DNA of 64,000 nt, taken from the NCBI GenBank assembly GCA_014925825.1, contig JACGCK010000003.1, positions 124,001 to 188,000 on the forward strand, given 5' to 3'. This document shows, in pieces, positions 22,396-54,342 of the stretch (position 1 is the stretch's first letter; every line of letters begins with the position of its first letter). The notes under the pieces were generated by a model. The model was not told the DNA's origin, made no database searches, and worked only from the letters and a program-made list of their open reading frames with translations. The position numbers and the translations under genes were made by a program. Source of the stretch: Pholiota molesta. Lineage: Eukaryota; Basidiomycota; Agaricomycetes; Agaricales; Strophariaceae.

Positions 22396-22803
22396 GTTGG
22401 GTTTGGAGGCGCAGAGGTGCAAGTGAATGTGGGGTACAGAGGAGAATAAATAAGCAGGCGCTAATTATTATACAACTTTGTAAATGACTCCTGATTTACG
22501 GGTGGAGCGCGAGTTACCATATAGCGCATACTGTTCCTCCTTATTACGTGCGATCGCGCAAGCGAGGCTATTTCCGGTCGGACTCAAGATTATCGATGAA
22601 CCGGTGACATTCGGCCTCCTGCTTTCTTCCTACTTACTACTTATCAATTGGTGCAGAAAAAGCTCTGGCAGCTGCTGTTCACATCTGCCAAAGTCGTGGG
22701 GAAAACAATTTCTAGGGAATTTGTTCTGGACCGCGACCTGCTTCATCGAACCTCGAGGACAGGAAAGTTATCACTGTGAAAAGTGTAGGCGTAGAAAAAC
22801 GTT

Positions 22804-22836
22804 ACCTCAAAGGCAACGGAAAATGTTGCCTGAGGT
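22804..22836. repeat. Stem-loop with 12 paired bases
   Basis: ACCTCA (22804-22809) pairs with TGAGGT (22831-22836) and GGCAAC (22812-22817) pairs with GTTGCC (22825-22830), around a 7-nt loop and a 2-nt bulge. Its role is unknown; it may be the end of an old non-autonomous element. Confidence 0.75.
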
Positions 22837-22946
22837 GATCAAATACAGCACCTTGCCACAGTCACAAAAAGCTCTGCCAAGAGCAGTGAACCATATTAAT
22901 CAATATATTACAAAAAGATAATAGCAGCGTTAAATGTCACTTGGAA

Positions 22947-23078
22947 GCAAAGAATGCTGTGAAAAGTAGCAGACAATAACACCCAAGGTAGCAAAGAATG
23001 CTGCGAAAAGTAGCGGACAATAACACCCAAGGTGTCAAAAAAAGCACCGAAAGCAACGGAAATTGATGCCGAAGGTGT
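22947..23078. repeat. 44-bp tandem repeat, two clear units plus one degenerate
   Basis: GCAAAGAATGCTG(T/C)GAAAAG recurs at 22947 and 22991, each followed by AGTAGC(A/G)GACAATAACACC and CAAGGT. A third, diverged unit follows to about 23078, ending 60 bp from the transposon boundary. Confidence 0.8.
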
Positions 23079-23138
23079 CAGAAAGCGTCGATTAATTGAC
23101 CTAAAGGAAGCAAACTTTGTCACCTCCTTCCCAATGGA

Positions 23139-23176
23139 TAACGCGGTAAGGCCGACAAGCGGCATGGCCCGCTACC
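23139..23176 (-). repeat. 3' terminal structure of copy 1: hairpin plus subterminal inverted repeat
   Basis: GCCG-ACAAG-CGGC forms a hairpin at 23151-23163, about 12 nt from the terminus. CCCGCTACC at 23168-23176 is the inverse of GGTAGCGGG at 33686-33694. The same arrangement ends copy 2 at 33757-33794. Confidence 0.8.
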
Positions 23177-23911
23177 TGTGAGGTGTTACGCGTCACAATT
23201 TGTTACATGTCGTGACTTTCTAAATAGGTTCTGTAAGCCGTATCTGTCTTGGGTTGATAAATGAATGAAATCTGACACCGTAGACTCATCGACACAGACA
23301 TACTGAGCTTGTCTCCGTTTTGAAAACATATATTTAATGTCTTTAATGCTTATTCCGTATATGCGATGTCTAGACGTCACATGTCACATGTTACCGACCT
23401 TTTCAGATTACTTCGGTGCCTTTCTGTAGGCCGAGGGATGTACGGCTAAGGTTCAAATACCACACAGACCTGTTTATATAGCTCATATGTATATAAATCT
23501 AGGTTTTTGTATTCTTCAGATGCGAATTGCTGGCAGCAGAGCATTAAATTTATAGATACATATGTGCATTTCTCAGTCCGACTTATGTACAAATAAGATC
23601 AAACAATGTGAATGATCGCACGCATGCAACTTGGGAACACATTGGGACATTGTATCTCTCACCCCAATCCCTTCAGTGCCAATGACTCAATCTCGCCACC
23701 GAGGTCCGACACCTGCATGATCAACGAACACCCGCCTGATCAACGACAGCGATGATGCACAACCGATGACGAGTACGATGGGGGTGGATGGCTGTCGATA
23801 CCATGCCATGTTCACCGCCCTCTCACCACATTCCTGTGGGACGCCTCCGCATTACCGTCTTCATTGAATCTAAGAGCACAAAAAAGTGACTAATCAATTA
23901 CCTAGGAACTT

Positions 23912-24446
23912 ATTACATCTGGGACGACGCTGGGAGCCTTGCTCGGTGGCCTTATTGCTGGAGTCCTGTCCGATTGGACGGGGCGCGCCTAGTTCTAGGT
24001 GTTGCACACATCATATTTTTCAGAGGGCTATCACTGAAGCCGTATGCCATATGGTCGGTCTGGAGCATGGTCAGTCATCTCGTCGTCTTATACCTGACGA
24101 CACATTCATTCCTTACACACAGATAGGAGGTCGATTTCTGGCATTGGAGTCGGTCTCGCTGGGTGCATAGCACCGCTGTACATCCAGGAACTCTCCTCCC
24201 ACGCGCCTCCGCGGATGCATGGTGGTCCTCAAGTCCGTCCTTCTGCTCCTAGCTCGCCATTATATCTGCTGACGATTTTCCCTAGCATGGTGCGTCGTCA
24301 TGATCACGCTGGGCCAGGTGGTCGCATATGGCATCGGCGCTGGATCTACGCACATCACTAGCGGTTGGGGATGGATGATGGGTCTGGGCTCTGTGCCGGC
24401 TGCGCTGCAATTTGTGTTCCTGTTCTTCCTTCGTGAGAGTCACATG
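23912..24446 (+). pseudogene. Captured fragment of an ITR1-like inositol/sugar transporter gene (copy 1)
   Basis: Decayed coding pieces on the strand opposite to the transposon genes. ITSGTTLGALLGGLIAGVLS and then DWTGR match the MFS sugar-transporter motif D-x-x-G-R. After a likely intron ending near 24123 comes GGRF, then, in a shifted frame, GIGVGLAGCIAPLYIQELSS. Next comes MVVLK, an intron up to about 24284, and VVMITLGQVVAYGIGAG followed by SGWGWMMGLGSVPAALQF and FFLRES. This order is that of myo-inositol/sugar transporters of the ITR1 type. It includes only the middle of a transporter, has frameshifts and stops, and still has intron-like sequence, so it derives from genomic DNA rather than mRNA. 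It lies inside the element, so it was carried along by transposition. Confidence 0.85.
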
Positions 24447-24671
24447 TATATACCTGCGCAACTTCATTACCCTCATTGTTGAGTCACATTCAATTCAAAA
24501 TTCGAGTTTTATATGCTGAGCCGTCAACGGTCCAGATTTACTACAACATCCTGTGCTATAAGTAGAATAGACCTCGAAAAAAGGCAATACTGCCAGTATG
24601 TACTTAAAAATAAACAATGAACTCAGAACTACACATACAAATGTCAATGTCGGCAGTCTATGATATTCAGT

Positions 24672-26073
24672 TCAGTCGAGGCGAGCTCTCTTTGAAGGAG
24701 AAGTAAAGGAAGTAAAAGCTGACGATGCCTTTTTACGAGGTGAAGAGGATGAGGCCTCGCTGCTGCCAGCTGCGAGCATAGGAAGATCTGGAATATCAAA
24801 AACCTCCACGACTTCATCTGACTCGGACAACACTCGAAGACGATGTCCTTGGATCTGGTAGATCTATATGTAAGTATGCTGGTTAGCACGTTTAGAATGA
24901 TGTTTCAATGCCGCCATAATATACCTTTTTGTCTCTATCGCCATTTCCTTTCCCAGCAATATGCCAGCAGACCAATGTTGCCTCTACGAGGACAACAGTC
25001 CCCTCCCGAAGCTTGTCAGCCATGTCCCATGGTGCGATAAGGTTATCGTCAATATCCACCATATCAAGCTGGACGAGCTTCGCAGCTTTGTGTTGAAAGT
25101 ATCGACCACGATGGTCGGGAAGGAGGTTTGGGTCGTATAGTGCACCAAGTGCAATCGCGGGTCCTGTCCAAGCCCCCAAAATTTCGTTACAATATGATTG
25201 TGCAATTATCATAAAACTTACCAGATGAACCATCAGCCACTGCATCCGAGAGCGTATCATTGTTCGAAATGTTGCCTTGGTCTGCAACGATAGGTGGAGC
25301 GAGAAGATTTTTTTCTTCGGTGCCTCGCCTTTGACAGAGTCTTTGGCATTTGGGACCTGTATCGTATAAGTAGGATCCAAGGAATGTGTCGATCACCACT
25401 TACCTTGTACTTTGGAGGCATGGTGATCTTGATTAAACCATTGTCTTTGATTTCAGAAAGTGGATCGGATGGCAAAAACCATGACGTCGTGAAGGCCTCG
25501 ATAGACAGATTAGTGAAGAGCTTTGCATGCAATAAATAGCACCTACTGATTTGGGATGAAGGCTAGCGACCCTATCGTCCTCGATGAGGATCTCTTCCAA
25601 AGTCGAAACCTGATTCAAGAAGGCATCATCAAGGAAGTTGCCTTCGGTCTGAACACCCATAAGAGGGCGGAGGACCAAAACATCCTTTACAATGGTCTCA
25701 TCTGTGATAGGCTGATTGCAAGATTAGCAATGATATCGTTCAATAATAGTATTGTTAACAAACATACCTTTGGAATACGACCGACAGAGTGATTTCCTTT
25801 GGCAGAAATCTGTGTTCCATAGGCCGAATGACAAACCTCGCCAAAGAAGATAAGACCGAGTTCATCGCCACGTTCGTCTTTGTTGCCCCCGAGATAGAAT
25901 TGGGTGCGACCAAAGCCACCCTCCTTTTCAGGAGGAAAGTAAGCGCAGTGAAACTCACAGCCATATGACATGGTGCCAAGTGCAAACGTTGAAGTCGGTT
26001 CGATGGCCCGAAGCTGTTCCTCCAACTGCGTGAAGAAACCATTGTTCTGACGATCAAAATAACAGTTGGCCAT
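24672..26073 (-). CDS. Transposon accessory protein, unknown function (copy 1, frameshifted in exon 4)
   Basis: Six exons are inferred. Exon 1 is 25768-26073, starting MANCYFDRQNNGFFTQLEEQ. Exon 2 starts at 25711 (PITDETIVKDVLVLRPLMGV) and probably ends at about 25571; its donor is uncertain. Then come exons beginning LFTNLSIEAF, VPNAKDSVKG and GPAIALGALYDPN, and a last exon IYQIQGHRLRVLSESDEVVE ending with basic SPSKRARLD at 24672. The block DDNLIAPWDMADKLREGTVV and LVEATLVCWH resembles the strand pattern of an OB fold, so ssDNA binding is a guess. Exon 4 has one T fewer than copy 2 in a T run near 25310, so the spliced frame breaks here. A TATA box lies 85 bp upstream of the start. Confidence 0.7.
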
Positions 26074-26157
26074 CGTGTTGAGGTGAGTAGAGGTGATAAA
26101 GATGCTGAAAAGTGCTGGGGATACTGGGGGTATCGAAATGAGCCGATTCTGGCAGGG

Positions 26158-26164
26158 TTTTATA
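26158..26164 (-). promoter_or_regulatory. TATA box of the accessory gene
   Basis: TATAAAA on the minus strand, about 85 bp upstream of the accessory ATG. The same box is in copy 2 (26158 corresponds to 36776). It suggests independent transcription rather than read-through from RepHel. Confidence 0.65.
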
Positions 26165-26368
26165 TGCGATACCTGAAAGCAAATTTGAAATTGATTAGCT
26201 CCGTGTAGAACTCAAAGAAAAGCCATACCATAGAAAGAAATGTATAGAAATTTCGCGAACATCGGATAAATATTCAAGGGATGGTATCATCGATCTGGGC
26301 TGTAGTATTGCTGATGCATAAATCAAAATGTGGAACATAGGATGAATACCACAAGTATACTCACCTTT

Positions 26369-29300
26369 TTAGATCAACCGCCGGGTCTTTCGTCTCGGAT
26401 TCATCTCCTCAGTAACTCCATCCATGATCTCAGAGGAAGGGGAGAGACGTTTTTTGCGGCGAGTGGTATGGTGTGTTGTCGAAAGTGACTCTGTATGGGT
26501 GGAAACCGGACTGATGATAGTGATATCTGTATGCTCCCCATATCTGCAATCTTGCTGATCGGGAATATCAACCGGTTGGGAGGATGAGCCGGAGAGTGAA
26601 CGTCTTGTGGAATCAGTCGGACGTTTGCGTTGGCTGCGTTGGCGAGAAGGAGATGGCTGAAGGGATGATGGAGAGCTGTTCGTGCTGGTTGTAGAGTTGG
26701 CTTGATCGTGTGAATGCACACTGCTCCTGGTCTGTAATGCTGCTATTTCACTAGGAGACCCATGCTCAAGGATCGTTTCCAACCTTAAACTTTCAAACCT
26801 TTGTAGTTCTACACGTAGATCTTCTGATAAACGACACTTTATTTTTTTATCACTGAATTTTCGAAGTATGAGTAGCCCATTTAAATTTGTAACACGCGAA
26901 ACCATAACATAGGGTGCTTCAGTACCTTTAGTGCTTTCCAAATCAATGATTACTTTACCCATTGTCTGACCTTGGGCTTTGTGGGCTGTCATTGCAAAAG
27001 CAGGCATAATTGGAAGTTGGGTACGTTTGATCTTACAACGCTTTCCTGAATGTGGATGTGTAAATGTCATATCCACGGTATCTTGTAAAACGACAGCATG
27101 TCCTTGAGATAAGCCATGCAAAGGATCACCCGAAATTGTACTGCTCTCTACAACACAGGAAATTGCATATCGTTTTCCACTCTCATCCTGTCGATAACGT
27201 ATTTTTTTAAGAATACCTATGCATCCGTTAACAACGCCATTCTCAACGTCATAGTTTTGAGTAATCATAACGGGCATCCCTAGTACTAATGGAATTTTTC
27301 CAAGACGCTGATTTGTTGTACCAGAGTTAAGAGCCTCAAGATGACTTTGCAAGTCTGGGTCTGTTATAGGACTACCTCGGTGGATATCTTCTGCATAATA
27401 CCAATGGAGTTCCTGGTTTGTTTTTGCTGCAAATGCCTGTGCTGAGCGAGCATTTAGGGCATCTTTTTGTGCATTCTCAGAAACAATAATGGGTACATTT
27501 TGCCATTCACTCCAATCAATTGATACATTCTCAAGTACACGGGTTGATAGAATATCAAAGTCATCATTCGTACACCTTCCTTCACGAAGCCGATTAAGAA
27601 GTTCAACAAGGCGGGCATTTTCAGGACCATGCTGTCGCATACTTTCAGTTAAAATAACAACTTTTTTAAAAGATAGCCATAGAAGTTTTCCAAAGACTGT
27701 GTCTTGTCCTCGAGGTGAGGATGAATTTGTTCTTGTAGTATCAACACGAGCATAAAGACGAGTGTCACCAACAGGTGGTAACTGATTAAAATCCCCAGCT
27801 ACAATAAGATTTATACCACCAAAAGGCAAGTTAATACCTTTTGCATCGATCAAAGCCTGGCTAATTTTGTATAGCATAGCACATCCAATCATTGAGACCT
27901 CATCTATAAAAAAGTAGTCAATGCCTTCCCACATAGCTGCAAGATCTCGTCGGGTTTTTGACTGGGCACCTGATTTCTTTCGCTGGTTGAGGGATAATGC
28001 TGCATGTACAGTCATACCAGAAATATTTCTTGCAGCTACTCCAGTATATGATGCTAATCGAAATCGCCGTGTCTGTCCACGCCGAACAAAAAACTCTCTC
28101 AAAGCTTGAATGACACGTGACTTTCCTGTTCCGCCTGCTCCTCCAAGATACATACGAAGAGGCTCCTTGTCTTTTTGCAAACTATGTTCACATATAATTC
28201 GGAATGCCCGTGCCTGTTCAGTATTCAAGGTAAACTCTTGAACCATATCTTCAATATCAACTCTATTTTCATGTACCACAGCAGGTATTCCTTGGGAAAT
28301 GGATGCATTTAATGGAGTTTGGTTTGCCATGGCCTCTCTAAATGCAGATCCATCATTTATAATATTATTATTCCCTGTATTAGATTGACTGTTTATAGGA
28401 TTCTGATTCTCATTGTTTGATGTTGCCCGTCTTTTCCAGTTTTCACGCCTTGCCTCATATTCTGATCTCCATTGATCTTCAAGCAACACATCTGACCCAC
28501 TGATCTGTTCTATAGAATATAAATCCCTATTTGTAAAATCATTTTGACCATCGCTTATATTCATATTAGGATCAGAAAAATTAGAAGTACTAAACATCCC
28601 ATTTATCTCTGCATTTAAAAGACACTCATTGACAGCATCCTGTGACCTGGCTATACGCTGTGAGTTGCAATTTGAAATTGACTGCAAGTGGTCAAGGATT
28701 ATATCAGGATTTGCAGGACCAAAGTCATCGTCTGTCTCATGTTGACTTGCACTCAAAATTTCATCTGAGACTTGTCTTTTCCGGAGTCTATTTGAATTCC
28801 GACGTTCAACAAAATGATCTTGTGCACTATCTTTACATTCATGTAAAAGCTGCATGTTGTCAAGTAATTTTTTAATTTTAGTTGGACATGTCACCATAAA
28901 ATCTTTAAAAGCATCCTCCCAACTTTGCTCTGGTGCACGGAGATCCTCAGCATGTCTCCATGGTTTAAACAATATAAGCATAAGACGGCAGTATCGTGGG
29001 AATACTTCTTTTCTATCACGTCTTGGTATAGAAGGACCTATAGGAACAGGTACAAATTTGTCTTCTTCAGATTTTAGAGTCAAACAGTGTGTATTTGCTT
29101 CAATATGACTATCCTGCAATGCATAATAGCACCTCTTAGCGCGACCTTTTGTATTGCTGCTATTGTATTCTGTTATATGATCTTCAGAGTCATCAATGTC
29201 CATCTCAGTATCAGTATCATCAAGATCACTGCTATCTGAGTCAAATAATAAGCTTTCAACTAATTCTTGTTGCTTAGATTTGCGAGGCTTTCTAATTTTC

Positions 29301-32300
29301 TGAACACATGATACAAAATCCCACACACAAAAATTCTCAAGCTGAAGATCTCTTAGTTGGTAATCTGAAACCTGATTTGCTTTAGCAATTAGCTGACCTG
29401 AGGAATAAGTTGCAATACTGATCTCTTCATCAATAACTTCTTCAATAGAATCATCATCATCATTGCCAAGTAGACTATTATATGTATCAGAATCAGTACT
29501 AGTATCATTAGCTATATCTGAATCAGGTGTGTCACTTTGAGCAGATACAGATTTGAATTGATAACATTCAGGACTAGGGATTTCTTTGTTTATAAAAGCT
29601 TCAAAGCTTGTCCAAAATAAATTTCTATATTTATGGCTTGTAAAATGATCCTCATAGTCCATTAGATATGATGCAACTTGTTGCGCAGATAGTTCTTGAT
29701 GAGAAATCATAGCATAAGCACATTTTTGCAAAAGTTTCTTTGCTCGCACAGTCAGTTCATCATCTTCTGGATTATATTCTCCTAATTTCTTTACAGATAA
29801 TTCTAAAGCAGCATAAGCAACATGAGTTTTCAGTTGAGACTTTGTGATATAATTTGTAATATAATATGTGATAGATTTGGCAGCAGCTCCTGATCCAATA
29901 AATTTGATATCCATATTGCAACGCATTGCCTCCAAAATTGTGGCATTAAAATTGTTGACAAGTCCATCAAGACATCGCAAGGAAATCTCCCCAGTTTCCA
30001 TATTGAAGGTAGTCTCAGGTATGGTATTTAATGAGTCTAAGTCAAACCGACACTCTCTTGGATGAGGAGGTCCTTTCCAGTACTTGTAGCATGTACCGGA
30101 ATGTTTATGAACCTGGCAACTTTTAGCAAGATTATATATGTCCTTTGCACGAGCAGTATCATAGTCAATTCCTGATGTTGATGTATCCAGACCACGTACA
30201 GAACATGGATGATAAATTGAAGATGGAACCTCAATATTTGCATCTGGATCATTAGGAATTTCATTTGAGATGGTATCATCCAAGAATGTAATTAGGCGAT
30301 CTCTAAATTCTATATCACCTTCATTTATTATTTTATTTTTTATTTCATCTGGATTTAGACCACCTTCAAGCCAAACCATCATATGACAGTGTAAAGTACC
30401 TCTTCCCTGAGCTTCAACACATCCATAATAAGCTTTCACCACACCTAAAATTCCTCCATCAAGATTTTTAGACTTTGGGTCAAAACCTAGAAGAGCGGAA
30501 ATAAAGGATTTCATATATATATTAAAGAACTTAGCTGCAACAAAGGGATTTTTTGCAACAAGAATTGATTGTTCCCAGTAGTTTGGAACCTGTTCTGGAA
30601 GTAAATTATCAATATCAATGTCTGCTCCACCAAGGAATTTTACAAGTGGGTTATATACATCAGCAGGATTTATTGTAATAAAGAAGCTAGGCATGCCTTT
30701 CTCAATCATTAATCCCCGAATTTCATTGCGCATTGCTACACGTGAAGCAGATGTTCCAGGAACATTTGAAGTAACAGCAGTGACCTGTTTCATTAAATTT
30801 AAAACTTTTCTCTCTTCTGCATTATTAGCAGTAACTGAGTCCCCTCGAGATATACGTTCGGTCACTATGTGAATTGTCTCAGGTGATACAGATGCAAAAT
30901 CATTGGCAATAATTGGAAAAGATGTCTTACGGGTCTTGAGACTTGTATGTAATAGAACAGAACGTCTTTGTAAAATATTAAATACAGTAAACAAGAATGA
31001 ATAATGTTCTTGGAAACGCTTATCTGAGAGACTGAAAAGGTGCTTGACATGACGCTTCATAGAGAGTGGTGTCTTGCGATTTTTATTCTCAAAACCACCT
31101 ATACCATATGGGAAAAGTGTAGGATAGATCATTGGAAATAAATCTGGATTAAAGAATTCATTAACAGGTGTTGGATCATGCGGAATTTCCATATAGCCAC
31201 CACCTTTCTTGACATGTCTAAGTGCTGCAGCTCGTAACTCATTTGCAGGTGCATGACCTTCAACGTCTGTGATCACAACGTTTTGGAAGGGTAACTCACT
31301 GCCGGATTCTATGTGACTAGCATTATCATTATCCATATATTCAGCTTGTACAAAAGCAGATGGGGTAGCACTTTGATTTGATGTACCATTACTAGGTCCA
31401 GTAGTTTGATTTGTTGATTTATTTTGAACAATACTGGAATTATCAGACTCAGAGGTTGAATTGTCATAGCGAGATGTTAGAATATCAGATGCATCACTTG
31501 GAAGAATATGTTCAATGTGGAAGGGCAAAACTTGCTCCAACTCAAGGCTATCAAGGATGGTATGATTTATTTCTATATCTTGGTAAAGAGGGTTATTATG
31601 TTTCAACCAATTGAGAGCAGCGCGGACTTTCTCTCTTCGTACGCACAAAGGTTTTGCCTTTTTCTGTAACCATTCAGTAGTGGGTGGAGATGATCCAATA
31701 AACAACACACATATGGGTGTCAAGACATCTGACATATTGGGCGGTAATAGATGTGCTATTTCGGAAGGACGTTGGGGATATATTATAATATGACCCTTTA
31801 CACCACGTTGGGAATCAGGCGATGTTATCTCTGTATTCTCTTCTTTTAATTGTACAATCCAACATTTAGCACGGCATCGTGCAATCATAGCCTCCTCAAC
31901 TACAGTCAGATCCTTTAATTCACTTGGAACAGGCCCCAAATAGTTCAAGTTAGCCATTGCCAAAGCTGGTACTTTATTTCTGTTCAATGAAGAATGACAA
32001 TCTTTGCAGAGAGACAGCATCATGTTGCCATGCTCATTAGAGTAAACACCTGCAGAGTCCAAAGCAAGATCTTTCAATGGTCCTTCAGTATAGGGATAAG
32101 GTAGTGCATGAAGTCTATGTGAATCGGGCAATCTCAGAATATCTAGGTCTACATCAGATACTGCAAGCTCCTTACGAGATGAGCAAAGTGTTGCCTCTCC
32201 ACAAGACGCACAAGTGAACGTTGCCAGAGCATCTTTAGATGTTTCCTTGCGGAAGAGATTAATGATTTTATCTTTGAGGTCCTTTTGAACAATCTTAGGC

Positions 32301-33630
32301 CAGGTGTTTAGAATCTCTTGATGGCGTGCACGCAATGACTCTTCTGCAGCAATGGTTTCATTCCGCCGTTCTTCCGAACGTTTGCCATGTTTCAAACGAG
32401 TAATGAATTTTTTGAGTTCACGACGAAGTTGTGGACGACTATCATTGGGATTATGTGCTACAGAGTTCTGAGATAATATTCGACGCAGTGCACGCAGACT
32501 TAATTTAGGTGCCAATTGACTTAGTATTCTTATTTTGAAATCTATCAAGGTCTGACTGGCATCACCACTTGAGTCCTCAACTGCGACAGAAAAGTTTGAA
32601 TTAAAATCAATACAAAAGGAAGAAGAAGACGATACACAATTGCCGGAGGAAATATGGTCAGAAATGAGATCACGAAGGGCATTGATTGATACAAGGGGTG
32701 GGAGAGACAAACTATGTGAATTAGCGATAGACAACAAGGCCGGTTTCCGTAGATCTTCCAAAGAAGAAAGGAAGTCATGAATAGTATGATATTGTGGAGT
32801 CGGTACATGTGTAGAGGATGCGGGGGAGCCGTAAGGAGGAGATGGAGAGCCAGTATCATGATGGGATGAATACGAAGATGTGGCATCAGCGCCGGTGACA
32901 TCAGAGTCAAGGTGTGAATAGGTGTTAGGTTGTGGAGTCGGTACATGTGTAGAGGATGTGGGGGGGGTATTACGAGGAGATGGAGAGCCAGTATCATGGT
33001 GGGATGAATACGAAGATGTGGCATCAGTGCCGGTGACATCAGAGTCAAGGCGTGAATAGGTGGTAGGTTGAACGAAGAGAGACACATCTAGAGTATGCAA
33101 ATTCAAAGATGAGCATAATAGAAAGGGTGAGATTGGTAGAAATACTCACCAGATTGTGATCGGAATCCGACTCTGGGCGATAAAGAGAAATCAAGGATTG
33201 TAGAGTCAGATAAAGAGATAGTAGCACCTGGAATAGCAGTAGAGCAGAAATTAAACCAATCACAGCCTAAGACGATATCGCAAGGAAGCTGCTTTCCAAC
33301 AGCAAGATTGAGGAGACACAGAAATTGGCCCGATGAGGTATTGACGGAGACCGCACAGTGGATTGTTTCGGCTTGACGACGACGATACCCTTTTTGAAGG
33401 CAATATATGGAAGAGATGGTGGATGAAGAAGAATCACCATCATAGATAGCGATAGCCAAAGAGCCATCGATATTGACGTTGAAAGAGGGCGAATACATGC
33501 TCAAGATGAGTGAGGAAGCTCGAGGAAGGATGATACGGAGGCAACGATACGAAAGCAAGGGTACCGTAGGTGAGAAAATCGGAGATTCAAAAAGGGCTTG
33601 ATTTGGAAACTTGTTCTTAAGCACTGCCAC
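26369..33630 (-). CDS. RepHel transposase (HUH Rep + PIF1-type helicase), copy 1, open reading frame intact
   Basis: Exon 1 is 33150-33630 and exon 2 is 26369-33087, joined over GTGAGT...CTAG (62 bp) in phase 1, giving 2,399 aa. Exon 1 (160 aa) ends with LPCDIVLGCDWFNFC, like the C-terminal half of a retropepsin. Then come two ~45-aa repeats starting YS(R/H)LDSDVTG. A DUF6570-like region with CASCG...CKDCH and KVPALAMANLNYLG follows. The Helitron_like_N Rep domain has the two-His motif GTLHCHMMVW (about residue 1060) and the tyrosine motif YYITNYITK (about 1235). The PIF1-type SF1 helicase follows: GGAGGTGKS (about 1813), IDEVSMIG, GDFNQLPPVGD, MTAHKAQGQTMGK, VMVSRVTNL. The basic C-terminal tail looks like nuclear localisation signals. 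The protein nicks DNA and unwinds the strand for rolling-circle transposition. The 5' UTR is at most 65 bp, from the element end. Confidence 0.95.
33150..33630 (-). other. Exon 1 of RepHel: retropepsin-like N-terminal domain
   Basis: The 160 residues contain VNIDGSLAIAIYDGDSSSS, then AVSVNTSSGQFLCLLNLAVG, then DIVLGCDWF. Order and spacing resemble the flap and the final D-[IV]-[IV]-L-G-x-D-W part of Ty3-type aspartic proteases. The usual DTG/DSG is replaced by DGDS, so activity is doubtful. This is a resemblance in pattern, not a proven homology. Confidence 0.4.
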
Positions 33631-33685
33631 ATGAAATTCCCCGCAAGTTTTGATTTATTAAACGCACTAAGACCCTCTACCTAAC

Positions 33686-33695
33686 GGTAGCGGGA
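33686..33695 (-). repeat. 5' terminal inverted repeat of copy 1
   Basis: GGTAGCGGGA on +, that is TCCCGCTACC at the 5' end of the element. Nine of these bases are inverted at 23168-23176. Confidence 0.8.
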
Positions 33696-33756
33696 AAAAT
33701 GCTGAGGGGGTCGTTCCTCTGCCTTCTTGCAGTATTGGAGGCCATGATTAATGGTA
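33696..33756. other. 61-bp spacer between the two tandem elements
   Basis: Unique sequence between the 5' end of copy 1 and the 3' end of copy 2. Both borders are T (minus strand). It does not match the flanks of the array except for a short AATGG next to the 3' end. It contains no feature. Confidence 0.8.
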
Positions 33757-33794
33757 TAACGCGGTAAGGCCGACAAGCGGCATGGCCCGCTACC
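33757..33794 (-). repeat. 3' terminal structure of copy 2
   Basis: Same hairpin and subterminal CCCGCTACC as in copy 1; the inverse repeat is at 44303-44311. Confidence 0.8.
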
Positions 33795-34528
33795 TGTGAG
33801 GTGTTACGCGTCACAATTTGTTACATGTCGTGACTTTCTAAATAGGTTCTGTAAGCCGTATCTGTCTTGGGTTGATAAATGAATGAAATCTGACACCGTA
33901 GACTCATCGACACAGACATACTGAGCTTGTCTCCGTTTTGAAAACATATATTTAATGTCTTTAATGCTTATTCCGTATATGCGATGTCTAGACGTCACAT
34001 GTCACATGTTACCGACCTTTTCAGATTACTTCGGTGCCTTTCTGTAGGCCGAGGGATGTACGGCTAAGGTTCAAATACCACACAGACCTGTTTATATAGC
34101 TCATATGTATATAAATCTAGGTTTTTGTATTCTTCAGATGCGAATTGCTGGCAGCAGAGCATTAAATTTATAGATACATATGTGCATTTCTCAGTCCGAC
34201 TTATGTACAAATAAGATCAAACAATGTGAATGATCGCACGCATGCAACTTGGGAACACATTGGGACATTGTATCTCTCACCCCAATCCCTTCAGTGCCAA
34301 TGACTCAATCTCGCCACCGAGGTCCGACACCTGCATGATCAACGAACACCCGCCTGATCAACGACAGCGATGATGCACAACCGATGACGAGTACGATGGG
34401 GGTGGATGGCTGTCGATACCATGCCATGTTCACCGCCCTCTCACCACATTCCTGTGGGACGCCTCCGCATTACCGTCTTCATTGAATCTAAGAGCACAAA
34501 AAGTGACTAATCAATTACCTAGGAACTT

Positions 34529-35063
34529 ATTACATCTGGGACGACGCTGGGAGCCTTGCTCGGTGGCCTTATTGCTGGAGTCCTGTCCGATTGGACGGGG
34601 CGCGCCTAGTTCTAGGTGTTGCACACATCATATTTTTCAGAGGGCTATCACTGAAGCCGTATGCCATATGGTCGGTCTGGAGCATGGTCAGTCATCTCGT
34701 CGTCTTATACCTGACGACACATTCATTCCTTACACACAGATAGGAGGTCGATTTCTGGCATTGGAGTCGGTCTCGCTGGGTGCATAGCACCGCTGTACAT
34801 CCAGGAACTCTCCTCCCACGCGCCTCCGCGGATGCATGGTGGTCCTCAAGTCCGTCCTTCTGCTCCTAGCTCGCCATTATATCTGCTGACGATTTTCCCT
34901 AGCATGGTGCGTCGTCATGATCACGCTGGGCCAGGTGGTCGCATATGGCATCGGCGCTGGATCTACGCACATCACTAGCGGTTGGGGATGGATGATGGGT
35001 CTGGGCTCTGTGCCGGCTGCGCTGCAATTTGTGTTCCTGTTCTTCCTTCGTGAGAGTCACATG
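34529..35063 (+). pseudogene. Captured inositol/sugar transporter fragment (copy 2)
   Basis: Same decayed transporter pieces as in copy 1, including the frameshift after GGRF and the remaining introns. All lesions are shared, so capture and decay came before the tandem duplication. Confidence 0.85.
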
Positions 35064-35288
35064 TATATACCTGCGCAACTTCATTACCCTCATTGTTGAG
35101 TCACATTCAATTCAAAATTCGAGTTTTATATGCTGAGCCGTCAACGGTCCAGATTTACTACAACATCCTGTGCTATAAGTAGAATAGACCTCGAAAAAAG
35201 GCAATACTGCCAGTATGTACTTAAAAATAAACAATGAACTCAGAACTACACATACAAATGTCAATGTCGGCAGTCTATGATATTCAGT

Positions 35289-36691
35289 TCAGTCGAGGCG
35301 AGCTCTCTTTGAAGGAGAAGTAAAGGAAGTAAAAGCTGACGATGCCTTTTTACGAGGTGAAGAGGATGAGGCCTCGCTGCTGCCAGCTGCAAGCATAGGA
35401 AGATCTGGAATATCAAAAACCTCCACGACTTCATCTGACTCGGACAACACTCGAAGACGATGTCCTTGGATCTGGTAGATCTATATGTAAGTATGCTGGT
35501 TAGCACGTTTAGAATGATGTTTCAATGCCGCCATAATATACCTTTTTGTCTCTATCGCCATTTCCTTTCCCAGCAATATGCCAGCAGACCAATGTTGCCT
35601 CTACGAGGACAACAGTCCCCTCCCGAAGCTTGTCAGCCATGTCCCATGGTGCGATAAGGTTATCGTCAATATCCACCATATCAAGCTGGACGAGCTTCGC
35701 AGCTTTGTGTTGAAAGTATCGACCACGATGGTCGGGAAGGAGGTTTGGGTCGTATAGTGCACCAAGTGCAATCGCGGGTCCTGTCCAAGCCCCCAAAATT
35801 TCGTTACAATATGATTGTGCAATTATCATAAAACTTACCAGATGAACCATCAGCCACTGCATCCGAGAGCGTATCATTGTTCGAAATGTTGCCTTGGTCT
35901 GCAACGATAGGTGGAGCGAGAAGATTTTTTTTCTTCGGTGCCTCGCCTTTGACAGAGTCTTTGGCATTTGGGACCTGTATCGTATAAGTAGGATCCAAGG
36001 AATGTGTCGATCACCACTTACCTTGTACTTTGGAGGCATGGTGATCTTGATTAAACCATTGTCTTTGATTTCAGAAAGTGGATCGGATGGCAAAAACCAT
36101 GACGTCGTGAAGGCCTCGATAGACAGATTAGTGAAGAGCTTTGCATGCAATAAATAGCACCTACTGATTTGGGATGAAGGCTAGCGACCCTATCGTCCTC
36201 GATGAGGATCTCTTCCAAAGTCGAAACCTGATTCAAGAAGGCATCATCAAGGAAGTTGCCTTCGGTCTGAACACCCATAAGAGGGCGGAGGACCAAAACA
36301 TCCTTTACAATGGTCTCATCTGTGATAGGCTGATTGCAAGATTAGCAATGATATCGTTCAATAATAGTATTGTTAACAAACATACCTTTGGAATACGACC
36401 GACAGAGTGATTTCCTTTGGCAGAAATCTGTGTTCCATAGGCCGAATGACAAACCTCGCCAAAGAAGATAAGACCGAGTTCATCGCCACGTTCGTCTTTG
36501 TTGCCCCCGAGATAGAATTGGGTGCGACCAAAGCCACCCTCCTTTTCAGGAGGAAAGTAAGCGCAGTGAAACTCACAGCCATATGACATGGTGCCAAGTG
36601 CAAACGTTGAAGTCGGTTCGATGGCCCGAAGCTGTTCCTCCAACTGCGTGAAGAAACCATTGTTCTGACGATCAAAATAACAGTTGGCCAT
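35289..36691 (-). CDS. Transposon accessory protein, unknown function (copy 2, open)
   Basis: Same six-exon gene as in copy 1. Here the T run near 35930 is one base longer. Exon 4 reads VPNAKDSVKGEAPKKKNLL, then APPIVADQGNISNNDTLSDA, and ends at a GTAAGT donor in phase 1, joining correctly to GPAIALGALYDPN. The model gives about 376 aa. The middle is linker-like and the C-terminal tail is Ser/Lys-rich. The exon 2 donor is the weak point: GTCGCT gives a 50-bp intron and a good join (EDDR-LFTN), while the alternative GTAGGT would give an intron of only 26 bp. The exact family was not recognised. The C-terminal block looks like proteins often found beside Agaricomycete Helitrons, from memory only. 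Confidence 0.75.
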
Positions 36692-36986
36692 CGTGTTGAG
36701 GTGAGTAGAGGTGATAAAGATGCTGAAAAGTGCTGGGGATACTGGGGGTATCGAAATGAGCCGATTCTGGCAGGGTTTTATATGCGATACCTGAAAGCAA
36801 ATTTGAAATTGATTAGCTCCGTGTAGAACTCAAAGAAAAGCCATACCATAGAAAGAAATGTATAGAAATTTCGCGAACATCGGATAAATATTCAAGGGAT
36901 GGTATCATCGATCTGGGCTGTAGTATTGCTGATGCATAAATCAAAATGTGGAACATAGGATGAATACCACAAGTATACTCACCTTT

Positions 36987-39900
36987 TTAGATCAACCGCC
37001 GGGTCTTTCGTCTCGGATTCATCTCCTCAGTAACTCCATCCATGATCTCAGAGGAAGGGGAGAGACGTTTTTTGCGGCGAGTGGTATGGTGTGTTGTCGA
37101 AAGTGACTCTGTATGGGTGGAAACCGGACTGATGATAGTGATATCTGTATGCTCCCCATATCTGCAATCTTGCTGATCGGGAATATCAACCGGTTGGGAG
37201 GATGAGCCGGAGAGTGAACGTCTTGTGGAATCAGTCGGACGTTTGCGTTGGCTGCGTTGGCGAGAAGGAGATGGCTGAAGGGATGATGGAGAGCTGTTCG
37301 TGCTGGTTGTAGAGTTGGCTTGATCGTGTGAATGCACACTGCTCCTGGTCTGTAATGCTGCTATTTCACTAGGAGACCCATGCTCAAGGATCGTTTCCAA
37401 CCTTAAACTTTCAAACCTTTGTAGTTCTACACGTAGATCTTCTGATAAACGACACTTTATTTTTTTATCACTGAATTTTCGAAGTATGAGTAGCCCATTT
37501 AAATTTGTAACACGCGAAACCATAACATAGGGTGCTTCAGTACCTTTAGTGCTTTCCAAATCAATGATTACTTTACCCATTGTCTGACCTTGGGCTTTGT
37601 GGGCTGTCATTGCAAAAGCAGGCATAATTGGAAGTTGGGTACGTTTGATCTTACAACGCTTTCCTGAATGTGGATGTGTAAATGTCATATCCACGGTATC
37701 TTGTAAAACGACAGCATGTCCTTGAGATAAGCCATGCAAAGGATCACCCGAAATTGTACTGCTCTCTACAACACAGGAAATTGCATATCGTTTTCCACTC
37801 TCATCCTGTCGATAACGTATTTTTTTAAGAATACCTATGCATCCGTTAACAACGCCATTCTCAACGTCATAGTTTTGAGTAATCATAACGGGCATCCCTA
37901 GTACTAATGGAATTTTTCCAAGACGCTGATTTGTTGTACCAGAGTTAAGAGCCTCAAGATGACTTTGCAAGTCTGGGTCTGTTATAGGACTACCTCGGTG
38001 GATATCTTCTGCATAATACCAATGGAGTTCCTGGTTTGTTTTTGCTGCAAATGCCTGTGCTGAGCGAGCATTTAGGGCATCTTTTTGTGCATTCTCAGAA
38101 ACAATAATGGGTACATTTTGCCATTCACTCCAATCAATTGATACATTCTCAAGTACACGGGTTGATAGAATATCAAAGTCATCATTCGTACACCTTCCTT
38201 CACGAAGCCGATTAAGAAGTTCAACAAGGCGGGCATTTTCAGGACCATGCTGTCGCATACTTTCAGTTAAAATAACAACTTTTTTAAAAGATAGCCATAG
38301 AAGTTTTCCAAAGACTGTGTCTTGTCCTCGAGGTGAGGATGAATTTGTTCTTGTAGTATCAACACGAGCATAAAGACGAGTGTCACCAACAGGTGGTAAC
38401 TGATTAAAATCCCCAGCTACAATAAGATTTATACCACCAAAAGGCAAGTTAATACCTTTTGCATCGATCAAAGCCTGGCTAATTTTGTATAGCATAGCAC
38501 ATCCAATCATTGAGACCTCATCTATAAAAAAGTAGTCAATGCCTTCCCACATAGCTGCAAGATCTCGTCGGGTTTTTGACTGGGCACCTGATTTCTTTCG
38601 CTGGTTGAGGGATAATGCTGCATGTACAGTCATACCAGAAATATTTCTTGCAGCTACTCCAGTATATGATGCTAATCGAAATCGCCGTGTCTGTCCACGC
38701 CGAACAAAAAACTCTCTCAAAGCTTGAATGACACGTGACTTTCCTGTTCCGCCTGCTCCTCCAAGATACATACGAAGAGGCTCCTTGTCTTTTTGCAAAC
38801 TATGTTCACATATAATTCGGAATGCCCGTGCCTGTTCAGTATTCAAGGTAAACTCTTGAACCATATCTTCAATATCAACTCTATTTTCATGTACCACAGC
38901 AGGTATTCCTTGGGAAATGGATGCATTTAATGGAGTTTGGTTTGCCATGGCCTCTCTAAATGCAGATCCATCATTTATAATATTATTATTCCCTGTATTA
39001 GATTGACTGTTTATAGGATTCTGATTCTCATTGTTTGATGTTGCCCGTCTTTTCCAGTTTTCACGCCTTGCCTCATATTCTGATCTCCATTGATCTTCAA
39101 GCAACACATCTGACCCACTGATCTGTTCTATAGAATATAAATCCCTATTTGTAAAATCATTTTGACCATCGCTTATATTCATATTAGGATCAGAAAAATT
39201 AGAAGTACTAAACATCCCATTTATCTCTGCATTTAAAAGACACTCATTGACAGCATCCTGTGACCTGGCTATACGCTGTGAGTTGCAATTTGAAATTGAC
39301 TGCAAGTGGTCAAGGATTATATCAGGATTTGCAGGACCAAAGTCATCGTCTGTCTCATGTTGACTTGCACTCAAAATTTCATCTGAGACTTGTCTTTTCC
39401 GGAGTCTATTTGAATTCCGACGTTCAACAAAATGATCTTGTGCACTATCTTTACATTCATGTAAAAGCTGCATGTTGTCAAGTAATTTTTTAATTTTAGT
39501 TGGACATGTCACCATAAAATCTTTAAAAGCATCCTCCCAACTTTGCTCTGGTGCACGGAGATCCTCAGCATGTCTCCATGGTTTAAACAATATAAGCATA
39601 AGACGGCAGTATCGTGGGAATACTTCTTTTCTATCACGTCTTGGTATAGAAGGACCTATAGGAACAGGTACAAATTTGTCTTCTTCAGATTTTAGAGTCA
39701 AACAGTGTGTATTTGCTTCAATATGACTATCCTGCAATGCATAATAGCACCTCTTAGCGCGACCTTTTGTATTGCTGCTATTGTATTCTGTTATATGATC
39801 TTCAGAGTCATCAATGTCCATCTCAGTATCAGTATCATCAAGATCATGCTATCTGAGTCAAATAATAAGCTTTCAACTAATTCTTGTTGCTTAGATTTGC

Positions 39901-42900
39901 GAGGCTTTCTAATTTTCTGAACACATGATACAAAATCCCACACACAAAAATTCTCAAGCTGAAGATCTCTTAGTTGGTAATCTGAAACCTGATTTGCTTT
40001 AGCAATTAGCTGACCTGAGGAATAAGTTGCAATACTGATCTCTTCATCAATAACTTCTTCAATAGAATCATCATCATCATTGCCAAGTAGACTATTATAT
40101 GTATCAGAATCAGTACTAGTATCATTAGCTATATCTGAATCAGGTGTGTCACTTTGAGCAGATACAGATTTGAATTGATAACATTCAGGACTAGGGATTT
40201 CTTTGTTTATAAAAGCTTCAAAGCTTGTCCAAAATAAATTTCTATATTTATGGCTTGTAAAATGATCCTCATAGTCCATTAGATATGATGCAACTTGTTG
40301 CGCAGATAGTTCTTGATGAGAAATCATAGCATAAGCACATTTTTGCAAAAGTTTCTTTGCTCGCACAGTCAGTTCATCATCTTCTGGATTATATTCTCCT
40401 AATTTCTTTACAGATAATTCTAAAGCAGCATAAGCAACATGAGTTTTCAGTTGAGACTTTGTGATATAATTTGTAATATAATATGTGATAGATTTGGCAG
40501 CAGCTCCTGATCCAATAAATTTGATATCCATATTGCAACGCATTGCCTCCAAAATTGTGGCATTAAAATTGTTGACAAGTCCATCAAGACATCGCAAGGA
40601 AATCTCCCCAGTTTCCATATTGAAGGTAGTCTCAGGTATGGTATTTAATGAGTCTAAGTCAAACCGACACTCTCTTGGATGAGGAGGTCCTTTCCAGTAC
40701 TTGTAGCATGTACCGGAATGTTTATGAACCTGGCAACTTTTAGCAAGATTATATATGTCCTTTGCACGAGCAGTATCATAGTCAATTCCTGATGTTGATG
40801 TATCCAGACCACGTACAGAACATGGATGATAAATTGAAGATGGAACCTCAATATTTGCATCTGGATCATTAGGAATTTCATTTGAGATGGTATCATCCAA
40901 GAATGTAATTAGGCGATCTCTAAATTCTATATCACCTTCATTTATTATTTTATTTTTTATTTCATCTGGATTTAGACCACCTTCAAGCCAAACCATCATA
41001 TGACAGTGTAAAGTACCTCTTCCCTGAGCTTCAACACATCCATAATAAGCTTTCACCACACCTAAAATTCCTCCATCAAGATTTTTAGACTTTGGGTCAA
41101 AACCTAGAAGAGCGGAAATAAAGGATTTCATATATATATTAAAGAACTTAGCTGCAACAAAGGGATTTTTTGCAACAAGAATTGATTGTTCCCAGTAGTT
41201 TGGAACCTGTTCTGGAAGTAAATTATCAATATCAATGTCTGCTCCACCAAGGAATTTTACAAGTGGGTTATATACATCAGCAGGATTTATTGTAATAAAG
41301 AAGCTAGGCATGCCTTTCTCAATCATTAATCCCCGAATTTCATTGCGCATTGCTACACGTGAAGCAGATGTTCCAGGAACATTTGAAGTAACAGCAGTGA
41401 CCTGTTTCATTAAATTTAAAACTTTTCTCTCTTCTGCATTATTAGCAGTAACTGAGTCCCCTCGAGATATACGTTCGGTCACTATGTGAATTGTCTCAGG
41501 TGATACAGATGCAAAATCATTGGCAATAATTGGAAAAGATGTCTTACGGGTCTTGAGACTTGTATGTAATAGAACAGAACGTCTTTGTAAAATATTAAAT
41601 ACAGTAAACAAGAATGAATAATGTTCTTGGAAACGCTTATCTGAGAGACTGAAAAGGTGCTTGACATGACGCTTCATAGAGAGTGGTGTCTTGCGATTTT
41701 TATTCTCAAAACCACCTATACCATATGGGAAAAGTGTAGGATAGATCATTGGAAATAAATCTGGATTAAAGAATTCATTAACAGGTGTTGGATCATGCGG
41801 AATTTCCATATAGCCACCACCTTTCTTGACATGTCTAAGTGCTGCAGCTCGTAACTCATTTGCAGGTGCATGACCTTCAACGTCTGTGATCACAACGTTT
41901 TGGAAGGGTAACTCACTGCCGGATTCTATGTGACTAGCATTATCATTATCCATATATTCAGCTTGTACAAAAGCAGATGGGGTAGCACTTTGATTTGATG
42001 TACCATTACTAGGTCCAGTAGTTTGATTTGTTGATTTATTTTGAACAATACTGGAATTATCAGACTCAGAGGTTGAATTGTCATAGCGAGATGTTAGAAT
42101 ATCAGATGCATCACTTGGAAGAATATGTTCAATGTGGAAGGGCAAAACTTGCTCCAACTCAAGGCTATCAAGGATGGTATGATTTATTTCTATATCTTGG
42201 TAAAGAGGGTTATTATGTTTCAACCAATTGAGAGCAGCGCGGACTTTCTCTCTTCGTACGCACAAAGGTTTTGCCTTTTTCTGTAACCATTCAGTAGTGG
42301 GTGGAGATGATCCAATAAACAACACACATATGGGTGTCAAGACATCTGACATATTGGGCGGTAATAGATGTGCTATTTCGGAAGGACGTTGGGGATATAT
42401 TATAATATGACCCTTTACACCACGTTGGGAATCAGGCGATGTTATCTCTGTATTCTCTTCTTTTAATTGTACAATCCAACATTTAGCACGGCATCGTGCA
42501 ATCATAGCCTCCTCAACTACAGTCAGATCCTTTAATTCACTTGGAACAGGCCCCAAATAGTTCAAGTTAGCCATTGCCAAAGCTGGTACTTTATTTCTGT
42601 TCAATGAAGAATGACAATCTTTGCAGAGAGACAGCATCATGTTGCCATGCTCATTAGAGTAAACACCTGCAGAGTCCAAAGCAAGATCTTTCAATGGTCC
42701 TTCAGTATAGGGATAAGGTAGTGCATGAAGTCTATGTGAATCGGGCAATCTCAGAATATCTAGGTCTACATCAGATACTGCAAGCTCCTTACGAGATGAG
42801 CAAAGTGTTGCCTCTCCACAAGACGCACAAGTGAACGTTGCCAGAGCATCTTTAGATGTTTCCTTGCGGAAGAGATTAATGATTTTATCTTTGAGGTCCT

Positions 42901-44247
42901 TTTGAACAATCTTAGGCCAGGTGTTTAGAATCTCTTGATGGCGTGCACGCAATGACTCTTCTGCAGCAATGGTTTCATTCCGCCGTTCTTCCGAACGTTT
43001 GCCATGTTTCAAACGAGTAATGAATTTTTTGAGTTCACGACGAAGTTGTGGACGACTATCATTGGGATTATGTGCTACAGAGTTCTGAGATAATATTCGA
43101 CGCAGTGCACGCAGACTTAATTTAGGTGCCAATTGACTTAGTATTCTTATTTTGAAATCTATCAAGGTCTGACTGGCATCACCACTTGAGTCCTCAACTG
43201 CGACAGAAAAGTTTGAATTAAAATCAATACAAAAGGAAGAAGAAGACGATACACAATTGCCGGAGGAAATATGGTCAGAAATGAGATCACGAAGGGCATT
43301 GATTGATACAAGGGGTGGGAGAGACAAACTATGTGAATTAGCGATAGACAACAAGGCCGGTTTCCGTAGATCTTCCAAAGAAGAAAGGAAGTCATGAATA
43401 GTATGATATTGTGGAGTCGGTACATGTGTAGAGGATGCGGGGGAGCCGTAAGGAGGAGATGGAGAGCCAGTATCATGATGGGATGAATACGAAGATGTGG
43501 CATCAGCGCCGGTGACATCAGAGTCAAGGTGTGAATAGGTGTTAGGTTGTGGAGTCGGTACATGTGTAGAGGATGTGGGGGGGGTATTACGAGGAGATGG
43601 AGAGCCAGTATCATGGTGGGATGAATACGAAGATGTGGCATCAGTGCCGGTGACATCAGAGTCAAGGCGTGAATAGGTGGTAGGTTGAACGAAGAGAGAC
43701 ACATCTAGAGTATGCAAATTCAAAGATGAGCATAATAGAAAGGGTGAGATTGGTAGAAATACTCACCAGATTGTGATCGGAATCCGACTCTGGGCGATAA
43801 AGAGAAATCAAGGATTGTAGAGTCAGATAAAGAGATAGTAGCACCTGGAATAGCAGTAGAGCAGAAATTAAACCAATCACAGCCTAAGACGATATCGCAA
43901 GGAAGCTGCTTTCCAACAGCAAGATTGAGGAGACACAGAAATTGGCCCGATGAGGTATTGACGGAGACCGCACAGTGGATTGTTTCGGCTTGACGACGAC
44001 GATACCCTTTTTGAAGGCAATATATGGAAGAGATGGTGGATGAAGAAGAATCACCATCATAGATAGCGATAGCCAAAGAGCCATCGATATTGACGTTGAA
44101 AGAGGGCGAATACATGCTCAAGATGAGTGAGGAAGCTCGAGGAAGGATGATACGGAGGCAACGATACGAAAGCAAGGGTACCGTAGGTGAGAAAATCGGA
44201 GATTCAAAAAGGGCTTGATTTGGAAACTTGTTCTTAAGCACTGCCAC
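36987..44247 (-). pseudogene. RepHel transposase, copy 2, broken by a 1-bp deletion
   Basis: Exon 1 43767-44247, intron 43705-43766, exon 2 36987-43704. It has the same domain order as in copy 1. One C is missing near 39845 (ATCACTGCT in copy 1, ATCATGCT here), in an acidic linker after the Rep domain and before the helicase. Translation stops soon after the lesion (39791). The helicase part is still open as a separate frame (36987-39821). The deletion is not in a homopolymer. A product limited to Rep, or two separate parts, cannot be excluded. Confidence 0.85.
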
Positions 44248-44383
44248 ATGAAATTCCCCGCAAGTTTTGATTTATTAAACGCACTAAGACCCTCTACCTA
44301 ACGGTAGCGGGAACAATAAGGCCCAGCGACCATTATATCAATCCTATGCGTCATTCCCAGTGCCAAAAAAAAATTGCCGTGGA

Positions 44384-44485
44384 CGAGAATCGAACGTCAG
44401 AAACTTGTGCCTGGATCCAGACTCGAACGCGAGACCTCGTTTAAACATTACCCTCGTACATTTACCCCTACACCAATACACCTTT
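44384..44485 (-). repeat. tRNA-like module with A-box-like and two B-box-like motifs
   Basis: On the minus strand: TTGGTGTAGGGGTAAATG (A-box-like), then GCGTTCGAGTCTGG and GACGTTCGATTCTCGTC (B-box-like), followed by a T run. There are no paired acceptor ends, so it looks like a SINE head rather than a tRNA gene. It begins about 70 bp from the array's right end. Confidence 0.5.
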
Positions 44486-44759
44486 ATAAAGAGTTGAGCT
44501 GACCTAAAATATATCACGTCGTCTATGTGTGGTCCCTTCGTGTATTTTTACCTTCAAGTCCCTTGAACCATATTTACTCAACTAGATACATTGGCTTGCA
44601 GCTAACACTGCTTATTTCAGCTTCTGTACTATGGAATAGATTGCTTTACTTAGTCGTATCATATAGATGGAATCACAATTGTTAGGTATTGCATGGATAA
44701 ATTACTTGGGTTTGACGGAGACAAGCAATCGTAGCAGAAACCAGACATCCCGGATTCCC

Positions 44760-44970
44760 TCGGAACGACCGAAAGCTGTCAGTAACTGTCACCTGCCATT
44801 GAGTGCTATTTCTGGCTGCTTCGGAGTGACGCAGAAATTGTTACCTGTAATTAGGTGTCGTTCGGAGCTGCCGGTGCTACTTTGAGAAACTGTTGCTTCT
44901 CATTAGGTGCTCTTCGGAGTTGCTTCGGAGTGACCGGTGACGAAAAGTGATACCTGCCCATGGGTGACTT
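44760..44970. repeat. Degenerate repeats with small ACCT...AGGT palindromes
   Basis: About four diverged units of 45-65 bp, each with a short inverted pair, such as TTACCTGTAATTAGGTG and ATACCTGCCCATGGGTG, and often followed by TTCGGAG. The theme recalls the hairpin and repeat on the left side of the array. No gene. Confidence 0.55.
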
Positions 44971-45234
44971 TATTTTTGGTCTACAGTTACTAATTTCGTT
45001 ACTTCTAGAAGGTAGCGTTTTTGGAGCGGTGTCAAATAATGTCATCTCAACTACAAATATGCTACCTCAGTGACAAAGATTGTCACCTAGACTTTTCGCA
45101 GTGTTATGCTCTACCTACCTACCATGACGATACCTCTCTTCCATTCTAAAGCTTCTGAAGTATCACCATGATGGCCTAGGCGTAGAATCAAACTACACCC
45201 TCTATTTCACCAGGCCTAAAGAATGACTGGTACA

Positions 45235-52218: not shown

Positions 52219-52574
52219 GGTTGCAAGCCTACAAACGCGGCAGAATGATATGTTTCACGATATAGTTCGTGGATATAAAACAGATCACAACATACCTCAG
52301 ATTACCTGAAGGCCAAAAGCCTGCACAAAGCTTGAAGCTTGAAGAGTGATTTGGGCTTGAAGTTTCGATCCGTTGGTTACTCGGTTCTTTGCCTTGAAGA
52401 CGGTTGGAAACAAGAACAAATGCAGATTTGAATCATTTCTGACATACACAGTCAATCACTCACATGGTTCAACTCAATTGAAACTCACTAGTACTGCAAT
52501 TTTTTCAACAAAATTTAGGTTGATGCAAGTTGATGTTCTGATCACGGGTAGGACATGTAAAGATCAACATGGGA
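52219..52574. other. Gap between the two F-box paralogues
   Basis: 356 bp: promoter of paralogue 1 and 3' region of paralogue 2. No repeat or gene recognised. Confidence 0.5.
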
Positions 52575-54095: not shown

Positions 54096-54342
54096 GACTG
54101 AAATGCAACTGGAAGGTTGCTGGAACTTGGAAGGAGGCCAAGCAAAAGGTGTACAAGATGATTTGGGTGGCTGCCAAATAGATCAAAACAATATTAACCC
54201 AAAGAGACCCTTGCAACGTTGTTGCAACGACCTTGCAGCAATTCGAACAAGCCTCTGACTCAATGATATATAGGTCATCAATAAATAAACTCCTGAGCCT
54301 GCGAAGTGGAACAAAAACGCAAAGAAAAAAAAAATCCCGATG

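Follow-up and report, generated by a model that had tools for sequence, protein, structure and literature searches.

Two nearly identical Helitron2-like elements, probably inserted separately 60 bp apart in one copy of a host repeat of Pholiota molesta

The window analysed here, a stretch of 64,000 nucleotides from a contig of the basidiomycete Pholiota molesta (JACGCK010000003.1, positions 124,001 to 188,000), contains two nearly identical copies, A and B, of a Helitron2-like element. We propose, with a probability of about 0.88, that they represent two separate insertions in the same orientation, 60 bp apart within a single copy of a host repeat. Two insertions are needed because the spacer between the elements is single and lies at a fixed place of the host repeat, and because each copy has its own insertion site. 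The locus is composed as follows.

23138..33695, minus strand: Helitron copy A, complete, 10558 bp, 5' end at 33695 and 3' end at 23138, from empty-site comparison
33756..44312, minus strand: Helitron copy B, complete, 10557 bp, 5' end at 44312 and 3' end at 33756, from empty-site comparison
33696..33755, no strand assigned: spacer, 60 bp of host-repeat DNA, lying between the same flanks in 10 of the 11 other repeat copies
22772..23137, no strand assigned: left part of the host repeat (an inverted-repeat element of 1.22 kb), beginning with CACTGTGAAAAGT
44313..45103, no strand assigned: right part of the same 1.22-kb inverted-repeat element, ending with ACTTTTCGCAGTG
22768..22771, no strand assigned: TTAT, left 4-bp target duplication of the host repeat
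45104..45107, no strand assigned: TTAT, right 4-bp target duplication of the host repeat

When the window is compared with itself by BLAST, 23133-33700 and 33750-44317 form a direct repeat. This alignment of A with B, a check proposed by an earlier sequence-only reading, gives one long same-strand match of 99.94% identity over 10570 columns and bears out the claim of a near-identical 10.56-kb pair in one orientation. Inside the element there are four single-base differences, namely three indels (one in an A run, one in a T run and one inside the RepHel frame) and one G/A substitution. Read on the minus strand, both copies run from TCCCGCTACCGT to TTACCGCGTTAT. Their completeness, also claimed, holds, since both ends of each copy are fixed by the empty-site comparison; of the boundaries first given, the high ends stand and the low end of each copy was off by one base. 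The insertions, supposed from the outset to be recent, probably are so, because there is one substitution in about 10.55 kb and the allelic contig C122 is without the Helitrons. The near-identity suggests recency, though gene conversion could maintain it between old neighbours as well.

The evidence for two events comes from the 65.58-Mb assembly, in which the host repeat occurs at further places. Searched against it, the left flank gave 13 matches: its own site, 11 other repeat copies, and C122, which shares only the part outside the repeat. The right flank gave 12, its own site and those 11 contigs again. Such whole-genome counts are to be read as minima, because only the best candidates were scored. 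Comparison of 9.5-kb stretches from four contigs delimits a match of about 1.22 kb in three of them, at 94.6-98.7% identity, and a match that is shorter on the right in C277. Direct repeats of 4 bp flank the host repeat here (TTAT) and in the three complete copies C101, C618 and C620, that is, in the four copies examined. As both haplotypes are at least partly represented in the assembly, some of the 11 copies may be alleles of one another.

The left flank, the spacer and the right flank align unbroken around both sites in 10 of the 11 other copies. The eleventh, C422, has its spacer split by an insertion of about 1.0 kb. This insert has inverted ends (TAAGG...CCTTA) and is accompanied by a duplication of 8 bp (TTCCTCTG), and we take it to be hAT-like; given its presence, the spacer interval may be open to such events. 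When the flanks of B are joined, the result is identical to the empty site over 60 nt in two of the 11 copies; in 10 of them the central 24 nt are identical. The flanks of A, joined with the bases AT counted as host, fit exactly over 62 nt in one of the 11 and over the central 24 nt in seven; joined without AT, they fit exactly in none. The non-matching copies have substitutions near the site as aligned, and the same is true of C422 at site A. The A junction is ambiguous by two bases, as AT can be assigned to host or to element, and the empty-site fit is exact on one of these readings only. Because of this ambiguity, insertion of A would have involved either two bases common to element and target or the loss of two target bases. 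Precise ends and the absence of target duplication, as expected of Helitrons, are found exactly at B, and at A if AT is host. We read both as insertions at TA without target duplication, unambiguously for B and on the simpler reading for A.

The sequence-only reading had suggested that the tandem might be a rolling-circle multimer. Such a product could be a head-to-tail dimer from one event that did not terminate; a read-through unit would be another form of it. The same orientation and near identity of A and B would suit such a product, and comparable products have been proposed for other Helitrons (PMC5148889, PMC5876387). A dimer, however, leaves a direct join, and a read-through unit or a recombined circle leaves a doubled spacer. 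In place of a direct or read-through join free of pre-existing host DNA, we find a single spacer of host-repeat DNA in its proper position, and A and B each have host junctions of their own. As the spacer is target DNA, uninterrupted in 10 of the 11 other copies, we give the multimer almost no credence; the empty sites refute it, unless every matching repeat copy descends from this locus and arose once the Helitrons had been lost from it.

Two other routes to the pair were rejected. Homologous integration of a read-through circle would give two spacers, and the spacer here is single. Segmental duplication of one copy disagrees with the termini of A and B, which are those of short elements with other interiors, and with their differing flanks.

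Three of the four differences between A and B are one-base indels, two of them in homopolymer runs, and thus resemble sequencing errors in a single real copy doubled by the assembler. We nevertheless consider assembly duplication very unlikely. The two copies have different inner and outer flanks, each of which corresponds to the host repeat in its proper order, and this gives four distinct junctions bracketed by TTAT; moreover, the other haplotype was assembled separately and is empty. Merged haplotypes are also an unlikely source of the pair, the other haplotype being without the host repeat. A slim chance is left to insertions in different homologous repeat copies, followed by crossing-over in the spacer and homogenisation by gene conversion. 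The diverged second haplotype in the assembly makes recombination between homologues possible; this haplotype, however, lacks the host repeat entirely, and two insertions at neighbouring sites would still be required.

The allelic contig C122 is collinear with the window at four probed stretches, at 92-97% identity (26681-28168; 41856-43346; 43348-44138 with 44214-44441; 59715-61192). It joins 22771 straight to 45104 with a single TTAT (a 4-base overlap), and has neither host repeat nor Helitrons. From this junction and from the nesting of the elements, we suggest that an empty allele first received the host repeat, with duplication of TTAT, and that the two Helitrons were then inserted inside it. 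Alternatively to the first step, C122 may have lost the host repeat by precise excision.

There remains the question why two separate insertions should lie side by side. The genome search proposed by the earlier reading did bring up empty sites, in the host-repeat copies and in C122, but no third full-length Helitron: none was found in searches of the genome with 1-kb ends or with the RepHel protein. The longest other matches to the 1-kb queries are 153 bp at the 5' end and about 250 bp on the 3' side, the latter in a sugar-transporter gene fragment (see below). With up to three mismatches, the 3' end occurs at 14 places (a control pattern at 0), no two of which lie on one contig except A and B. 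Nor do the other 11 host-repeat copies contain such a Helitron. Given that A and B are the only full-length copies found, they are unlikely to be neighbours by chance. For two same-orientation copies no more than 60 bp apart, the random expectation is about 1e-6 per pair and 8e-5 over 91 pairs, figures which leave out target preference and the choice of this locus for being striking.

The cause that we prefer, at slightly less than even odds, is a short-range jump: the second copy would have been made from the first and joined at a nearby exposed TA site, while the 11 other targets stayed free. This preference is unproven and draws on one pair. Judging from known Helitrons, RepHel would nick the 5' end and peel off one strand, and a single-stranded or circular copy would be joined into the target without target duplication; the second Helitron, copied from the first, would in this way have landed close by. 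The main rival supposes a source that is lost or unassembled. Two independent arrivals from such a source, or from one in another nucleus, with the closeness due to chance, target preference or a permissive site, are a serious possibility that we place somewhat below even. The spot may be insertion-prone, as the other insertion in the spacer of C422 suggests, and AT-rich targets are favoured by Helitrons (PMC4778049). The low random expectation speaks against independent arrivals, and a mere preference for the repeat would not explain why, of 12 copies, one received both elements.

The element carries a gene for RepHel, with the following parts.

33150..33498, minus strand: predicted RepHel exon 1 of copy A, with ATG at 33498; splice sites read from sequence
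33088..33149, minus strand: predicted intron of copy A, 62 nt, GTGAGT...CTAG, from sequence
26369..33087, minus strand: RepHel exon 2 of copy A, with Helitron_like_N and PIF1 helicase domains (Pfam; open reading frame)
36987..44115, minus strand: RepHel gene of copy B, frame-broken as assembled, predicted product 1420 residues
32792..33070, minus strand: 138-bp unit present twice in the RepHel coding region, from sequence

With exon 1 joined in frame by removal of the one 62-nt intron, the predicted RepHel product of A has 2355 residues. The long minus-strand frame at 26369-33145 contains DUF6570, Helitron_like_N and PIF1, all above the Pfam cut-offs, and a sequence search of the PDB gave matches, in the helicase part, to PIF1 helicases and to 7lcc, the entry for Helraiser. 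HCH, YYITNY, GGAGGTGKS and FFIDEVSM are in frame in the predicted product; we take them to be the HUH motif, the two-tyrosine motif, Walker A and Walker B, respectively. Such an HUH Rep with two tyrosines, fused to a PIF1-type helicase, places copy A among Helitrons in the broad sense of any type. The exon 1 frame matched no family in a Pfam search; it codes for a segment with LPCDIVLGCDWF, to our eyes reminiscent of retroelement protease sequences.

The predicted product of copy B is truncated at 1420 residues because one base is missing from the frame, and it ends before the helicase motifs, which are out of frame. As assembled, this break is either real or a sequencing error. Of the intact frames initially claimed, the open RepHel frame of A thus stands, while that of B is broken. 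Having both ends and an open predicted RepHel gene, copy A is a candidate autonomous basidiomycete element.

RepHel residues 350-1200, used as query, matched 322 proteins at E 0.001 or better. Among the 120 of these that were listed, the best relative (P0002) is 83% identical, and the six named by organism belong to Panaeolus, Hypsizygus, Ephemerocybe, Collybiopsis, Trametes and Dentipellis, presumably all basidiomycetes. Other RepHel genes of the genome show at most 77% protein identity among the 21 of 97 candidates that were scored, and several distant ones in this set (28-47%) keep long open frames. The nearest, at C1:596036-601649, C586:2-4335 and C295:11485-13218, have 65-77% protein identity and are interrupted by stops.

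The type of the element can be judged from its termini, which include an asymmetric inverted repeat.

33686..33694, minus strand: 5' arm CCCGCTACC of copy A (44303-44311 in B)
23168..23176, minus strand: 3' arm GGTAGCGGG of copy A, 30 nt inside the 3' end (33786-33794 in B)

The arms were measured on B, and their letters are identical in A by alignment. As in Helitron2, the 9-nt CCCGCTACC lies near the 5' start and its complement 30 nt within the 3' end, and both termini are predicted to fold (5' hairpin -7.3 and 3' fold -11.1 kcal/mol, with DNA parameters). A canonical Helitron1 would have 3' CTRR and an AT target; here the 3' end is GCGTTAT, common to A, B and the short relatives C6, C17 and C433, and the target at B is TA. 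Helitron2 targets are described as lying between a T-rich stretch and T or C, and those of Helentrons within TT (PMC5148889). The targets found here, TA at B and TTTT^A at A on the simpler reading, agree with neither; fungal Helitron2 members with other targets are reported in the same paper (PMC5148889). With their asymmetric inverted repeat and without canonical CTRR, we regard the termini as Helitron2-like.

Three short elements of about 0.6-0.8 kb, C17, C6 and C433, look like non-autonomous relatives. Their first 92-152 bp match the element at 92-96% and their last 39-40 bp at 95-98%, and the DNA between is mostly different. Because they carry the same termini with other interiors, they support the Helitron ends independently. 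The relative at C433:248451-249076 has, inside its outer 5' end, a second and diverged 5'-end-like stretch (74% over 74 columns); this doubling recalls the multiple 5' termini of FoHeli (PMC5148889).

The 3' part of the element contains a piece of a different gene.

23883..24465, plus strand: fragment of a sugar-transporter gene, antisense to RepHel (in B at about 34500-35082, calculated by offset)

Loci on C597 and C183 match this fragment in part, at about 84% identity. Matches to Sugar_tr lie at 24273-24479, above the Pfam cut-off, and at 24098-24358, below it. Two frames in this 3' part, of 166 and 174 aa, have no Pfam family; among six shorter or overlapping frames there, two match Sugar_tr, one matches only EcoRII-C below the cut-off, and three match nothing in Pfam. 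The fragment was probably captured from a host gene, by ordinary Helitron gene capture. Longer transporter-like frames around the match on C597 suggest this direction, from host gene to Helitron. Outside the pair, minus-strand frames of 513 and 535 aa lie next to each other (50713-52254 and 52575-54182); 67% identical in DNA over 1239 columns and without a Pfam match, they are to all appearances tandem paralogues. Scans of the window for tRNA and Rfam families found none.

Several known systems resemble the element. FoHeli of Fusarium oxysporum, of Helitron2 type, shares RepHel, a 5' hairpin, lengths of about 5-11 kb and asymmetric terminal inverted repeats whose 3' arm lies about 20-40 bp inside the end, 30 nt here (PMC5148889). 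It differs in its ends (TCAG...ATTTT or TGCCT...CTCCTGT), in the target of FoHeli1 and 2 (TNAT^T versus TA here) and in host group (PMC5148889). HELPO1 and HELPO2 of Pleurotus ostreatus are RepHel Helitrons of a basidiomycete as well, have captured genes and reach 10-13 kb; however, they are described with CTRR or CTTG 3' ends, AT targets and a RepHel of about 1400 aa, as against GCGTTAT, TA and a predicted 2355 residues here (PMC4289320). Helraiser of bats has an HUH and PIF1-type RepHel, moves replicatively with circle intermediates, and is described with no target duplication; its ends are the canonical TC...CTAG and its targets mainly AT (PMC4778049, PMC5876387). The sequence match to its entry 7lcc is limited to the helicase part.

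Adjacent Helitrons in the same orientation are already on record (PMC2267711, PMC5148889, PMC5876387). FoHeli4 is reported 2 bp from another element, and three tandem copies in Metarhizium acridum (PMC5148889); tandem arrays are described in plants and bats (PMC5876387). The adjacent head-to-tail Helitrons of maize are similar in being consecutive insertions in the same orientation with vacant sites in other lines, but they are two different elements that abut directly, whereas here the same element occurs twice with host spacer between (PMC2267711). In a limited look at titles and abstract openings of the open-licence literature, we noticed no case of one Helitron paired with itself across a spacer proven to be of host origin. 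The present locus offers a clear case of a head-to-tail pair of one Helitron from two insertions, documented by an empty allele and by unoccupied paralogous sites. Before a pair of this kind is cited in favour of rolling-circle multimers, its spacer should be checked. An element with short relatives and a captured fragment also provides a setting where short-range Helitron movement could be tested.
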